Shown here one piece after another: positions 44,004-48,806 of a stretch of 64,000 nt of DNA; the stretch's first letter is position 1; the number at the start of each line of letters is the position of its first letter. The notes below the pieces were generated by a model that worked only from the letters and a program-made list of their open reading frames with translations, made no database searches and was not told the DNA's origin. The position numbers and the translations under genes are program-made. Source of the stretch: an uncultured Acidimicrobiales bacterium (GTDB lineage: Bacteria > Actinomycetota > Acidimicrobiia > Acidimicrobiales > SZUA-35); the NCBI GenBank assembly GCA_938021675.1, contig CALIFY010000001.1, positions 1 to 64,000 of the forward strand. The letters run 5' to 3'.

Positions 44004-44972
44004 CTAGAGCCGCCGGAGCCGAACCTCAGAGACCGAATGATCTGCTTCCTTGATCAGGATCAGGTCGGCCCGTTCCCTGGTTGGGCGGATATTCTCCACC
44101 AAGTTCTTCTCGTTGATCCTGACCCAAATGTCGGTGGCGGTGGACATGGCGTCTTCGTCGCTCAACTCCGAATAACGCTGAAAGTAGGAGCGTGGGTCGC
44201 GAAACGCCGTCTCCCGTAGGGTGAAAAACCGTTCGACGTACCAGTCTCGGATGTACTCGACCTCGGCATCGACGTAGATGGAGAAGTCGAAATAGTCCGA
44301 AACGAACAATGGCCGTTCGTCATCGAGAGACGCTGACTGCAACACGGTGAGCCCTTCGACAATCAATATGTCTGGTTGCCGTACGACGGTCTCTTTGTCG
44401 GGGAGTACGTCGTATGTCAGGTGGGAGTAGATCGGTGCCATCACTTCCGGTTGACCCGATTTGACCTCGGCTAAGAACTGCAGAAGCCGGCGCCGGTCGT
44501 AGCTTTCTGGGAACCCCTTGCGTTCCATCAGCCCTCGTTCCGACAGCACGGCGTTGGGATACAAGAAGCCATCGGTGGTTACAAGATCTACTTGCGGGTG
44601 GTTGGGCCAACGAGCCAGCACGGTCTGCAACACACGAGACGTCGTCGACTTTCCGACAGCCACCGAACCGGCGATGCCGATGACAAACGGCACCTTGGCT
44701 GGGAGTTTTCCGAGAAAGGTGTCGCTGGCGCGGTACAGGTCTTGCGAGGCTCCGACATACAGGTTGAGGAGCCGGGACAGCGGAAGATAGATCTTGGCTA
44801 CCTCATCAAGACTGAGAGTGACGTTTAGACCGCGCAACTTCTGCAAGTCTTCCTCGGACAGGCTCAGCGGCGTCGATGCCCGAAGCGCACCCCAATCTGC
44901 GTCGGAGAAGATCATGTATGGCTGCAGCTTTAGCTCATCAGACGAACCGGTCACCGCTCCGCATCGTGCCAT
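44004..44972 (-). CDS. coaA: Type I pantothenate kinase
   Basis: A 322-residue enzyme that phosphorylates pantothenate, the first step of coenzyme A synthesis. It has [14 protein letters not shown] at the N-terminus, Walker [19 protein letters not shown] (about 98-115), [12 protein letters not shown] (about 131-142), RKGFPESYD (about 151-159), YSHLTYDV (about 181-188) and [11 protein letters not shown] (about 204-214), all typical of the prokaryotic type I enzyme. The length matches E. coli CoaA (316). It is divergent from the Nudix gene. The ATG at 44972 gives a 19-residue N-terminal extension before the conserved PY-x-x-F; no ribosome binding site is visible. Confidence 0.94.
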
Positions 44973-45611: not shown

Positions 45612-46106
45612 CTAGAAGTCTGAATTCTGGCCGAGGACGACGATGACGTCAGCGCCATCGGTCACGACACCCGGGTTGTCGAGGAGGGGTCGCACCCTTG
45701 TCTCCTCTATACCGAGTTGGCTTGCCACCTCGACCGCATCTGCCTTATACCCGTCGATGTAGTACACGGCGCCATCATCGATTGGTTCGCCTTCTTTATT
45801 CTGCGGATCGAGCGTGCCGTACCCCAGACCTTCGAGTCGTCTGGTGGCCCGCCCGGCGAGACCTTGCCGCCCGTCCGACCCGTTACCGACACGAATCGTG
45901 ACCTCATTGGCAGGCCGGAGGCCGAGCCCTGGGGCGATCGGGTCGACAACCGGTTCCTCTTCTCGGCCTTCAGCCTCCCAGAGCCCGTCGTCGACGCTTT
46001 CCGATAAAAATCCGAACGCCCTGATCAGCCCAAACCCGAACACCAGGAGTGCAACGGCCAGGGCGACGGCGTTGAGCACGTCATTTCGTTCGACCCTGTC
46101 TAGCAC
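45612..46106 (-). CDS. LytR_C-domain membrane protein
   Basis: A 164-residue membrane-anchored protein. One helix (VLNAVALAVALLVFGFGLIRAFGFL, about residues 10-34) is followed by an acidic linker and a LytR C-terminal domain (VTIRVGNGSDGRQGLAGRATRRLEGLGY, about 69-96 in pieces, then VYYIDGYKADAVEVASQLGI and VIVVLGQN). The domain often follows LytR-CpsA-Psr ligases, and alone occurs as small actinobacterial envelope proteins. The GTG at 46106 has GGAG seven bases upstream. It lies downstream of trmI, 163 bp away, on the same strand. Confidence 0.85.
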   Translation of the reverse strand: MLDRVERNDVLNAVALAVALLVFGFGLIRAFGFLSESVDDGLWEAEGREEEPVVDPIAPGLGLRPANEVTIRVGNGSDGRQGLAGRATRRLEGLGYGTLDPQNKEGEPIDDGAVYYIDGYKADAVEVASQLGIEETRVRPLLDNPGVVTDGADVIVVLGQNSDF

Positions 46107-46269: not shown

Positions 46270-47076
46270 TCAGGTGGCTAGCAACCTGGCCCTGGTCAGG
46301 AAACCGGTATGAGCTACCATCCGATGATCGGGGCGGACTGCCGCACCTTCGATGTGCCAGGTGCGATGCATGACCTCGGTGGTCGAAAGTTCGGAGAAAC
46401 CGGCCGACTCGAGCGCGGTCCTGACCTTCATCACCTGAGTAATCGACGGGCTGTATGACACGAGGATCCCTCCGGGCCGCAACGCCGATCTGATGTGGGG
46501 AACCACCCGCCACGGTTCGGGGATATCGAGAACGGCCCGATCGAATTGGCCGTCGGCGTGTTCGGGGGCGAACCCCTCGTAACTATCGCGGCTATGAACG
46601 TCGTAGCGATCGAGGGCTTCGACGCCAAGAAACTCCGACACGTTTTTCTTGGCTTTCGCTGCGAAGTCGTCTCGCAGCTCGTAGCCGACGATGTCGGCGC
46701 CGGCCCGCAACATGCCCATCGAAAGTGCCCCGGATCCAACTCCGGATTCGAAGACTCGGATCCCTGGTTCGATGTCGGCGAGGAGAAGCAGTGGGCCGAT
46801 GTCCTTCGGATAGATGACCTGCGCTCCTCGGGGCATGGCCAGTATGTAGTCGCTTAGCGTTGGCCGATAGGCCGTAAACTTCTGCCCCCGTGTCGTCGCT
46901 ATGGCGGCCCCTTCGGCCTGGCCGATGATTTCACCGTGGGGCGCGACTCCGGCATGGGTCTGGAACTCGTCTCCGTCGGCCAGTCGGACGAGGTATCGGC
47001 GCTGTTTGTGATCGATGAGCAATACCAGATCGCCCTCGGCGAGCGGCTTTGCCACTGTGGTTTCACTGTCGCTCAT
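46270..47076 (-). CDS. trmI: tRNA (adenine-58-N1)-methyltransferase
   Basis: A 268-residue SAM-dependent enzyme that makes m1A at position 58 in the T-loop of tRNA. The N-terminal beta domain (LAEGDLVLLIDHKQRRYLVRL, then GEIIGQAEG) guides tRNA binding. The methyltransferase core has DYILAMPRGAQVIYPKDIGPLLLLADIEPGIRVFESGVGSGALSMGML (in pieces, motif I at about 103-116), VGYELRDDFA, and DRAVLDIPEPWRVV (about 172-185). The ATG at 47076 overlaps the TGA of the TtuA-like gene. In Actinobacteria trmI usually lies near proteasome genes; here it is linked to T54 thiolation genes instead. Confidence 0.93.
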   Translation of the reverse strand: MSDSETTVAKPLAEGDLVLLIDHKQRRYLVRLADGDEFQTHAGVAPHGEIIGQAEGAAIATTRGQKFTAYRPTLSDYILAMPRGAQVIYPKDIGPLLLLADIEPGIRVFESGVGSGALSMGMLRAGADIVGYELRDDFAAKAKKNVSEFLGVEALDRYDVHSRDSYEGFAPEHADGQFDRAVLDIPEPWRVVPHIRSALRPGGILVSYSPSITQVMKVRTALESAGFSELSTTEVMHRTWHIEGAAVRPDHRMVAHTGFLTRARLLAT

Positions 47077-48056
47077 CGGGTCGCCTTCGCTCGGGTGGAG
47101 AGTACATGCACTGGAACCGGTTCGGCGCCGGCGGTCCGGTCGACGAGCCGACAAAAACTACAGATCTCCCCGTCGCATGGGCTGCCGCACCGCCCGCACG
47201 GAGTCGGCCCGTCTCGCCGGGCACCGGTATCGCTTGTGTCGCTTGAGTCGTTGGTCGGCTCATCCTCGAGCCGGTCGGCCATCCGGGCCAGGAACCCAAA
47301 GTAGAACTCGGTTTTTGATCCCGGTGATTGGACCTCCAAACCGTTGAGTGCCTCTTTGTATGCCACATGCTTGTTGCCGGCCGCCATCGGACACTCGTCT
47401 ACGAGGTAGTCGATGCCCCGCAGTACGCAATACGCCGCCGTCTCGCGCTCGGTAAGCCGGACCAGTGGCTTGACCTTTCGAGGAAAGCCGCGCCCCGCTG
47501 GTAGCACCGGCCGCTGGCGTTGCAGATAGTCGACTTGCCAGCGCAACGTGTTGCCGTAGAGTACCGCCGCCTCGTCGTCGAGATTGTGGCCGGTCACGAG
47601 CGCGTCGTAGTTGCCGTCGACGGCGGCCCGGTCGAACAGGTGGCGTTTCGACAGTCCACATGCCGAGCAGGGAACTCGACCGGTCGTGGCCGCCGCGGTG
47701 GGGATGTCGTAGTCATACCGCTGGCGTAGGTCGACTTCGACCAGTCGAAGTCCGCGATCGCTGGCGAAACGCCTGGCGTAGTGTCCGGCCTGGTCCGAGT
47801 AGTCACCGATGCCGAGACCGACGTATAGCCCGTCGGTGTCGTATCCCAGTTCGACGAGGAGATCCCACATCGCAAGGCTGTCCTTGCCCCCAGATACCGC
47901 GAGAAGGGGTCGTTCACCGGGCGACAACATCTCGAATTGGTCAATCGTTCGCTCGACCTGCTGTCGGCAGTATCGCACGAAATGGTCGGCACAGAAGTTG
48001 GCGTTATGTCGACGGAGGTCGATGACGGCCCCGTCGCCGCAGACACGGCACTTCAA
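47073..48056 (-). CDS. ttuA: TtuA-like tRNA 2-thiouridine synthetase
   Basis: A 327-residue PP-loop ATPase of the TtuA/TtcA class that puts sulfur onto tRNA. It has an N-terminal zinc site (CRVCG, with FCADH later), the adenylating loop LAVSGGKDSLAMWD (about 52-65), the catalytic and cluster cysteines in CSACGLSKRH (about 131-140) and CPMA (about 222), TGHNLDDEAAVLYGNTL (about 155-171), and a C-terminal zinc finger CGRCGSPCDGEICSFCR (about 291-307). This is nearly segment-for-segment the layout of Thermus TtuA, which makes 2-thioribothymidine at position 54. It starts with TTG overlapping the stop of the TtuB-like gene by four bases and overlaps trmI at its end. Confidence 0.88.
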   Translation of the reverse strand: MKCRVCGDGAVIDLRRHNANFCADHFVRYCRQQVERTIDQFEMLSPGERPLLAVSGGKDSLAMWDLLVELGYDTDGLYVGLGIGDYSDQAGHYARRFASDRGLRLVEVDLRQRYDYDIPTAAATTGRVPCSACGLSKRHLFDRAAVDGNYDALVTGHNLDDEAAVLYGNTLRWQVDYLQRQRPVLPAGRGFPRKVKPLVRLTERETAAYCVLRGIDYLVDECPMAAGNKHVAYKEALNGLEVQSPGSKTEFYFGFLARMADRLEDEPTNDSSDTSDTGARRDGPTPCGRCGSPCDGEICSFCRLVDRTAGAEPVPVHVLSTRAKATR

Positions 48057-48277
48057 CCTACGACCTCGGTTCCAACCGCAACCGCGCCGCCGCTGATGAC
48101 CGGACGGATCTCGACCTCTTGATCATCGGCCAGAATGGCATCTCCTGGCACCAGCGTGCCGGCGCTGATAACCAGAACCGATTCCCGGTGTAGCTCCAAT
48201 TGTCGCAGCAACTTAACCACCGACATCGGGCCGCGAAATTCGAGTTCGCGGTTGGGGTTTCGCAGAATTACTTTCAT
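48053..48277 (-). CDS. ttuB: TtuB-like ubiquitin-fold sulfur carrier with C-terminal extension
   Basis: A 74-residue beta-grasp protein of the ThiS/MoaD/TtuB class. VILRNPNRELEFRG, VVKLLRQLEL, ESVLVISAGTLVPGDAILADDQEVEIRPVISGG follow the TtuB sequence layout in order, ending in the Ile-Ser-Gly-Gly motif that is activated as a thiocarboxylate. The Gly-Gly (codons at 48086-48091) is not terminal: ten more residues (AVAVGTEVVG) follow. A carrier of this kind would need proteolytic trimming to expose Gly-Gly. It is translationally coupled to the TtuA-like gene, its expected sulfur acceptor. ThiS or a protein-modifying role are alternatives, but the neighbour makes TtuB the best reading. Confidence 0.82.
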   Translation of the reverse strand: MKVILRNPNRELEFRGPMSVVKLLRQLELHRESVLVISAGTLVPGDAILADDQEVEIRPVISGGAVAVGTEVVG

Positions 48278-48289
48278 CGTCGACCTGCT

Positions 48290-48556
48290 TCAGCCGGTCG
48301 ATGCGTTGCGCCGGCTTCGGCGGGCGGCGCGCTTCTCTCGCCGGAAGTCTTTGAGCTGACGCTTGTGGGAGATGGGAAGGTGCTCGATGAGGACCGTCTG
48401 GCCTGGCTTGATCGGCGAAATGTCTATCAGTTCTCGACGGCCTGTCGATCGTTGGACGAGTCGGAACAACAGCATTGCCGCCGACGTGAAGACCCACGAG
48501 CGCGCCGGGCCACCGATGTATGACCGAACGGCCCAAAAAATCGCGCGTTTTACCAT
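48290..48556 (-). CDS. Small basic membrane-associated protein of unknown function
   Basis: An 88-residue protein. The first half has a hydrophobic stretch of moderate strength (AIFWAVRSYIGGP, then VFTSAAMLLFRLVQ, about residues 5-34), and the tail is strongly basic (HKRQLKDFRREKRAARRSRR). It lies 12 bp upstream of the TtuB-like gene and touches the stop of the preceding small gene, so it belongs to the same run of genes. The family is not recognised. One membrane segment with a cytoplasmic basic tail is the likely arrangement. Confidence 0.6.
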   Translation of the reverse strand: MVKRAIFWAVRSYIGGPARSWVFTSAAMLLFRLVQRSTGRRELIDISPIKPGQTVLIEHLPISHKRQLKDFRREKRAARRSRRNASTG

Positions 48557-48765
48557 CAGAACCGGCGAATCTCCAACACAGAACTCTTCTTCTTCCCTGC
48601 TCGTCGGCCGAATACGTAGACGAGGAGGAGGATGAGCACGGCGGCCGCAGCGCCGCCGACCGCCAGCTTTTTCTTGCTGTCTTCTGCGACGACATCGACC
48701 TGTCCCTGGATATCTCTGAACTTGGCCTCTATGTCGGCGGGGGTGATGCCTGCGGTTTCGGTCAT
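48556..48765 (-). CDS. Small single-helix membrane protein
   Basis: A 69-residue protein with a soluble N-terminal helix (ITPADIEAKFRDIQGQVDVVAEDSKKK, in pieces), one strong membrane helix (LAVGGAAAAVLILLLVYVFG, about 33-52) and a basic tail (RRAGKKK). The layout is frequent in actinobacteria beside holin-like proteins. The ATG at 48765 is chosen (AGAAAGAG upstream); a GTG at 48783 would add six residues. It sits between the holin-like gene and the 88-residue gene on the same strand. Confidence 0.65.
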   Translation of the reverse strand: MTETAGITPADIEAKFRDIQGQVDVVAEDSKKKLAVGGAAAAVLILLLVYVFGRRAGKKKSSVLEIRRF

Positions 48766-48806
48766 AGCAACTCTTTCTCTCACTCAGTTCAAACTCGGTG
48801 GGCGTG

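Follow-up and report, generated by a model that had tools for sequence, protein, structure and literature searches.

A covered Gly-Gly in the TtuB carrier of an actinobacterial ttuB-ttuA-trmI operon, and its possible maturation by a JAMM metallopeptidase

How can a ubiquitin-fold sulfur carrier act in tRNA thiolation when its gene encodes further residues behind the Gly-Gly end? The question is raised by a ttuB-ttuA-trmI gene block in a 64,000-nucleotide stretch (hereafter the window) of contig CALIFY010000001.1, from the genome of an uncultured Acidimicrobiales bacterium (assembly GCA_938021675.1; G000 below). The block encodes a putative TtuB carrier, a TtuA-type thiolase and TrmI, the tRNA 1-methyladenosine-58 (m1A58) methyltransferase. 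The predicted TtuB ends ...IRPVISGG-AVAVGTEVVG-stop, with Gly-Gly at residues 63-64 and 10 residues beyond it. A Gly-Gly covered in this way cannot be thiocarboxylated by the known route, so TtuB is either trimmed or no carrier; the gene product would have Gly-Gly at its mature C-terminus only once its 10 extra residues were removed. We consider it fairly probable that the operon serves a linked T-loop modification in which a JAMM metallopeptidase (likely Mec) trims a TtuB precursor, which is then thiocarboxylated and serves in the thiolation of U54; here we infer the cleavage, the protease, the base and the product. A first-pass annotation had proposed linked T-loop modification by these three genes, and this stands as the best reading of the locus; it had overlooked the tail, the fusions of TtuB to TtuA and the processing implied, and the product may be 2-thiouridine (s2U54) or 2-thioribothymidine (s2T54).

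Tails and fusions of the TtuB carrier

Residues 1-64 of the window TtuB align up to the final residue of the SAMP2 chain 5lda_B (E=1e-5), and residues 2-64 align, weakly, up to the final residue of the solved TtuB chain 5ztb_E (E=0.025). G000 has three ThiS-family genes, and its other two carriers, CysO and MoaD, both terminate at Gly-Gly. Relatives were collected in a first and a named set of loci, which partly overlap; the named set holds 80 of at least 587 confirmed loci. The SGG motif is kept in all 189 loci having a TtuB match. Tails were counted once per distinct sequence around Gly-Gly, which reduced the 189 loci to 173 (139 with a separate ttuB gene, the window excluded, and 34 fused); 14 first-set loci without a TtuB match had been dropped beforehand, and no locus lacked Gly-Gly.

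Tails are present in 117 of the 139 distinct separate ttuB genes, being one residue long in 12, two in 70 and three or more in 35 (maximum 120), and a sequencing or frame error in the window is thereby ruled out as their cause. The residue directly behind Gly-Gly (P1') is Ala in 65 and Ser in 28 of the 117, while the next position (P2') is Ala or Ser in only 24 of 105 (Fisher p 9e-18, relatedness ignored). A conserved first residue followed by a drifting remainder looks like a cut site. Tandem repeats were seen by eye in the tails of 55 and 120 residues (L007 and L221), which fits a discarded peptide that is free to grow. At another locus (L022), TtuB continues for 64 residues past its first Gly-Gly, and this stretch contains a second RPVISGG.

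In 34 distinct loci TtuB, SGG, a linker and TtuA are encoded in one frame, with P1' again mostly Ala (31; Ser 2, Gln 1). Pfam found both the ThiS and the PP-loop domain in all five fusions scanned; the structure predicted for the L164 fusion was of low quality (mean pLDDT, the predicted local distance difference test score, 51.9; five rows) and was not used. A tree was built from 176 TtuA sequences (minimum length 280 residues, each cut at 340) by a quick method with only Shimodaira-Hasegawa-like approximate likelihood ratio support (SH-aLRT). The fused state requires six changes on it, at least four of them forced by starred branches; the window TtuA lies nearest to rows from Ilumatobacteraceae and Acidimicrobiales. 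Genome G185 encodes TtuA twice, once fused to TtuB and once as a separate protein accompanied by a TtuB of its own (L082, L107).

The remaining components and the proposed route

The window TtuA is, by sequence comparison, of the TtuA type, and homology points to U54 as its target base. Among solved chains it scores 289 bits against T. thermophilus TtuA (5gha; E=6e-85), 217 against PH0300 and 80 against NcsA (6scy); among profile models it scores 243 bits for TtuA, 101 for NcsA and 55 for TtcA. On these scores, the only comparison made on this point, it does not group with TtcA, an outcome that would have spoken against the first-pass annotation. The curated equivalog cut-off of 450 bits is reached neither by the window TtuA nor by any TtuA match in the 60 class or 84 phylum genomes that have one. 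No variation was seen among the 22 aligned sequences in the SGGKDS loop, in the zinc-binding N- and C-terminal CxxC pairs, in Lys137, or in Cys130, Cys133 and Cys222, the last three of which we take to be the cluster ligands. A passage of PMC7138817 describes the [4Fe-4S] cluster of TtuA as held by three cysteines.

The first-pass annotation had suggested looking elsewhere in the genome for the activating enzyme TtuC and the rhodanese TtuD. A single ThiF match above the cut-off was identified in G000, a 428-residue protein that begins with a rhodanese domain and ends with an E1 domain; this fusion suggests that the functions of both TtuC and TtuD are available. MnmA is also encoded (295.9 bits), so U34 thiolation would be independent of TtuA.

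Enzymes that could add a 5-methyl group to U54 were also sought. TrmFO was not found in G000, nor above the cut-off in any of the 148 genomes of the class; 16 class genomes matching TIGR00137 weakly (17 stretches, N-terminal parts only, positions 1-77 of 433) were not counted. In the phylum, TrmFO occurs in 78 of 396 genomes, and the overlap with the TtuA list is G312 only (p 4e-8, relatedness ignored). PF05958 likewise has no match in G000 (46 of 148 class genomes have one). The suggestion drawn from this, that G000 lacks any 5-methyluridine (m5U) methyltransferase, is weakened by a RumA-type enzyme (TIGR00479, 185.7 bits; cut-off 183.55) at G000:C43:31606-32691 (L232), about 5 kb from mec-cysO-cysM. 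Archaeal m5U54 enzymes might derive from RumA-type enzymes, according to a passage of PMC6418473, and a portion of PMC5954106 lists the TrmA family in 68 of 74 Actinobacteria and TrmFO in 8. In tRNA of M. bovis BCG the m5U signal was 30 against 500,000 for m1A, values that are signals and not amounts (PMC6264175, in the section at hand), and s2U54 is described in a passage of PMC6418473 as unseen in wild-type T. thermophilus tRNA.

A JAMM metallopeptidase, Mec, adjoins cysO and cysM on contig C43 of G000 and bears the HxHx7SxxD motif, as do all 33 JAMM loci checked. To assign genomes, the complete lists of JAMM and TtuA positives were compared by eye, and the counts ignore relatedness. In the class, a JAMM was detected in 58 of 60 TtuA-positive genomes versus 48 of 88 without TtuA; in the phylum, it occurs in all 30 genomes with a fusion (in G157 weakly) versus 234 of 366 others. 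TtuA/NcsA-like genes of families f52 and f65 form a further group: none of their 15 genomes has a detected JAMM, against 67 of 69 other TtuA-positive genomes, a comparison that covers few families. The f52 and f65 genes seen at L137-L143 and L146 score about 153-169 bits, lack a nearby TtuB or TrmI match and are perhaps of a carrier-free type. As a separate observation, mec and cysM lie adjacent with no cysO detected at 12 TtuA-positive and 5 TtuA-negative loci (L235, L236, L246, L248-L251, L254, L261, L269, L273-L275, L287, L288, L290 and L291).

From these components a route can be proposed. TtuB would be translated as a precursor in which a short tail covers Gly-Gly; cleavage behind it (GG|AVAVGTEVVG) would fall to a JAMM metallopeptidase, in all likelihood the Mec encoded beside cysO and cysM; and the E1-rhodanese protein, TtuC and TtuD in one, would adenylate and thiocarboxylate the freed glycine. 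TtuA, with its [4Fe-4S] cluster and PP-loop, would then adenylate U54 and accept sulfur from the TtuB thiocarboxylate. TrmI would form m1A58, which promotes thiolation in Thermus (PMC6418473, in a passage on this effect). The product would be s2U54; should tRNA be a substrate of the RumA-type methyltransferase, it would be s2T54. A precedent for the protease step comes from T. thermophilus, in which loss of a JAMM lowered tRNA thiouridine by about half (according to a section of PMC3980101). Iyer et al. (2006) put forward the idea that JAB peptidases release ThiS and MoaD from fusions (in a section of PMC1779556).

Several findings weigh against this route. In 22 of the 139 distinct separate genes ttuB stops exactly at Gly-Gly, and JAMM does not track the tail among the TtuB genomes of the class, being found in 45 of 46 with a tailed and 11 of 12 with a tail-less carrier. 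Two fragmented drafts, G100 and G358, combine a two-residue tail with no detected JAMM; G062 and G312 (tail-less) also have a TtuB-TtuA pair and no detected JAMM. A JAMM without adjoining cysO was tried as a mark of TtuA-positive genomes and failed (21 of 52 TtuA-positive versus 28 of 40 TtuA-negative loci; the 93 JAMM loci comprised 53 and 40, one of the 53 having no Mec match, and a small number of flanks being cut by contig ends), which indicates that JAMM has other work and gives no support for its dedication to TtuB. A tail is also found on CysO, at 18 of 43 loci; tails in general are thus not special to TtuB, and the idea that they mark TtuB alone is ruled out. Position 54 is assigned to TtuA by homology, the RumA-type enzyme and the TrmA-family listing together make s2T54 possible, and with G000 at about 95% completeness a gene not found in it is not proven absent.

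The alternatives differ in what becomes of the tail and of the sulfur. If the tail were never removed, TtuB would be a structural partner or a relic, and TtuA would take sulfur from another donor, for example as persulfide or sulfide onto its Fe-S cluster. Precedent exists in organisms with a TtuB-independent TtuA (maritima, in a passage of PMC7138817), and in the phylum itself none of the eight f52 and f65 loci examined, from the 15 genomes, has a TtuB nearby. We nonetheless regard this alternative as unlikely: a carrier needing no free end would hardly keep Gly-Gly, yet SGG is universal among the TtuB loci and the 22 tail-less carriers end right there; the residue behind it looks selected; and it is the f52 and f65 genomes that lack JAMM. 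Somewhat less probable again is a system devoted mainly to protein modification, similar to urmylation, with little or no tRNA thiolation. In Thermus, Lys137 of TtuA and other lysines carry conjugated TtuB (PMC3980101, in the section on conjugation), and the invariance of Lys137 suits the idea; against it stand the retained PP-loop and cluster cysteines and the usual presence of trmI beside ttuA, and conjugation likewise requires a free Gly-Gly end, so that trimming would still be needed. The least probable alternative, and one that we hold in very low regard, moves TtuA to another position, U34 as in NcsA or C32 as in TtcA. The enzymes share a superfamily, and the NcsA and TtcA models both match the window TtuA, but in bits the TtuA type is preferred 2.4- to 4.4-fold by models and 3.6-fold by chains, MnmA is available for U34, and ttuA is coupled to the gene for a T-loop enzyme.

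Another account concerns tail length and is compatible with trimming: the two-residue tail would be forced by gene overlap, the Gly codons doubling as the ttuA ribosome-binding site and the ATGA or GTGA overlap then leaving two codons. This is a real possibility, although we would sooner wager against it. In 54 of the 70 genes with two-residue tails a four-base overlap (ATGA, GTGA or TTGA) leaves roughly six bases between the purine-rich Gly-Gly site and the start codon of ttuA. GGA or GGG serves as first Gly codon in 41 of the 70; the corresponding figures are 62 of 204 for the remaining Gly codons in these genes (p 5e-5) and 9 of 34 for fusions (p 0.003), both tests being exploratory and uncorrected. 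The exact GGAGG, however, is present in just 19 of the 70, and tail-less genes use GGA or GGG in 11 of 22, so the codon signal is not confined to two-residue tails; nor does the overlap account for Ala or Ser behind Gly-Gly, for longer tails or for fusions, in which no internal start is needed. In the window a GAGG inside the tail, 7 bases before the ttuA TTG, is the probable ribosome-binding site of ttuA. Such a role would explain how long the tail is, and not why it must be removed.

Trimming followed by thiolation remains the reading that we prefer for this locus. A wider version, in which Acidimicrobiia and related Actinomycetota thiolate position 54 through a JAMM-matured TtuB pro-protein (a tail or a polyprotein, with several independent fusions or splits), with Gly-Gly codons that often serve as the ttuA ribosome-binding site and with s2U54 lacking the 5-methyl group as product, is offered tentatively, as a generalization that we think more apt to fail in some part than to hold as a whole. 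A role other than T-loop modification may exist, but nothing in the data calls for one.

Locus layout, gene neighbourhood and distribution

The first-pass gene identities and overlap positions (TTGA at 48053-48056 between ttuB and ttuA, ATGA at 47073-47076 between ttuA and trmI, minus strand) agree with the open reading frames, Pfam matches and structure-chain scores (Table 1). TtuB matches PF02597 (ThiS; 27.8 bits, cut-off 22.5), TtuA matches PF22082 (TtuA_LIM_N; 36.7 bits), and TrmI matches PF08704 (GCD14; 100.7 bits) and PF14801 (TrmI-like_N; 53.4 bits); TrmI also scores 185 bits against Rv2118c (E=1e-53), 145 against the tRNA adenine-N1-methyltransferase 2pwy and 141 against TrmI 5c0o. Three small genes on the same strand (49136-48290) precede the block, and the nearest of them, separated from ttuB by 12 bases, is probably a member of the operon. 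No tRNA gene was detected in the 64-kb window; two are located in other stretches of G000.

Table 1. Genes and features at and around the ttuB-ttuA-trmI block (window positions)
Feature	Position	Strand	Basis or remark
ttuB, ThiS/TtuB-like ubiquitin-fold sulfur carrier, 74 aa, ATG start	48053..48277	(-)	Open reading frame and Pfam
Codons for the tail AVAVGTEVVG (10 residues) past Gly-Gly	48056..48085	(-)	Sequence
ttuA, PP-loop [4Fe-4S] tRNA 2-thiouridine synthase, 327 aa, TTG start	47073..48056	(-)	Pfam, models, alignment
trmI, tRNA m1A58 methyltransferase, 268 aa from ATG	46270..47076	(-)	Pfam and structure-chain matches
Small protein, 88 aa, no Pfam match	48290..48556	(-)	Position only
Small membrane-type protein, 75 aa, no Pfam match; membrane character by eye	48556..48783	(-)	Upstream homologs
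Holin-X-like membrane protein, 109 aa, PF07332	48807..49136	(-)	Pfam and upstream homologs
LytR_C-domain protein	45612-46106	(-)	Downstream of trmI; no link seen
Type I pantothenate kinase	44004-44972	(-)	Downstream of trmI; no link seen

The four-base overlaps and the same gene order across relatives bear out the proposal of a single operon. In the class, ttuB is located upstream of ttuA in 58 of 60 loci (of 62 matches), the remaining two contigs beginning inside ttuA, and adjacency on this scale is not chance. Among TtuB-bearing loci trmI follows directly in 104 of 109 in the first set and 76 of 80 in the named set, and five of the nine misses are contig ends; the 14 first-set loci without a TtuB match, five of them with trmI, are left out. 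Of 143 separate-gene loci with sufficient flank, 110 have an upstream homolog (E<=0.05) of the 75-residue protein and 110 have one of the holin-X-like protein (both in 109, only the one in one locus and only the other in another); none of 35 fused loci has either.

TtuA was detected with NF049949 in 60 of 148 class genomes (E<=1e-20) and 84 of 396 phylum genomes (E<=1e-40), so that the block is common, and the idea of a peculiarity of this actinobacterium is not supported. The named loci are almost all from metagenome-assembled genomes of Acidimicrobiia, Ilumatobacteraceae, Microthrixaceae, Nitriliruptorales and others. Some titles fit poorly with an actinobacterial-type ttu locus: L165, L171 and L188 (Bifidobacterium breve), L178 (Bacillota), L182 (Chloroflexota), L187 (Rokuibacteriota) and L220 (Nitrospirae). 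The Bifidobacterium titles look mislabelled, and the rest could reflect either wrongly labelled bins or genuine spread.

The earlier remark that nothing here hints at a thermophile holds up, both from the 16S gene and from the few named relatives whose setting is stated. The partial 16S gene of G000 has a G+C content of 54.8% (849 bases), a value that speaks against thermophily. A setting is given in eight named-locus titles, all cool-looking (groundwater twice, pasture, Lac Pavin, two water-depth samples, a fen and a bog); on the other side, two titles name Ferrithrix thermotolerans, and L178 comes from 'Centralia', presumably the fire-heated soil. Reviews present the TtuA/TtuB pathway as a feature of thermophiles that makes tRNA stiffer in the heat (PMC6418473, in its passages on thermophiles). 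Its frequency in lineages without a sign of thermophily suggests that its purpose may be wider than heat.

Relation to known systems

A prior report of a TtuB-TtuA fusion or a tailed TtuB was not found by title or abstract start in the open-access literature, subscription papers being mostly outside this search; for TtuA, actinobacteria and tRNA together, the open-access literature returned only a Thermococcus paper. Judged by sequence, the Ttu/TrmI block is of a known kind, and the tailed or fused carrier appears to be its new feature. Tails and repeated fusions offer a clear test of whether JAMM enzymes mature a tRNA-thiolation carrier, which, if true, would be a bacterial parallel to the processing of ubiquitin precursors; the locus also bears on the existence of natural s2U54.

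The closest known system is that of Thermus thermophilus (TtuA, TtuB, TtuC and TtuD with TrmI), which shares the carrier, thiolase and m1A58 methyltransferase families, a single E1, a rhodanese function, and the invariant cysteines and PP-loop. The present system differs in showing no sign of thermophily, in a carrier that is tailed or fused instead of ending at Gly-Gly, and in having E1 and rhodanese in one protein. TrmFO, which makes m5U54 in Thermus (a passage of PMC6418473), was not found here.

The CysO-Mec-CysM system of actinobacteria, which reportedly (in work attributed to Burns et al.) is a route to cysteine, also pairs a carrier with a JAMM and is present in G000. It is unlike the TtuB system in its product and in the end of the G000 CysO, which is Gly-Gly itself, although CysO elsewhere can be tailed. 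Archaeal ubiquitin-like genes beside PP-loop tRNA-modifying ATPases resemble this locus in that the carrier adjoins a PP-loop enzyme (Makarova and Koonin 2010; PMC2948915, in the part that treats these neighbourhoods); there the relation is one of neighbouring genes, and the new fusion described in that part joins a ubiquitin-like protein to Cgi121, not TtuA. The nearest likeness for the covered Gly-Gly is found in molybdopterin synthases, where MoaX of Mycobacterium tuberculosis and MoaD-MoaE of Deinococcus radiodurans also place a carrier ahead of an enzyme with an internal Gly-Gly to be cut. MoaX becomes functional only once the bond from Gly82 to Ser83 has been cleaved, by a protease that PMC4326299 leaves unnamed, and the Deinococcus JAMM cleaves MoaD-MoaE to a C-terminal Gly (according to a section of PMC8832034). 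These proteins make up molybdopterin synthase and have no TtuA partner; the P1' residue is Ser in MoaX and mostly Ala or Ser in the TtuB proteins described here.

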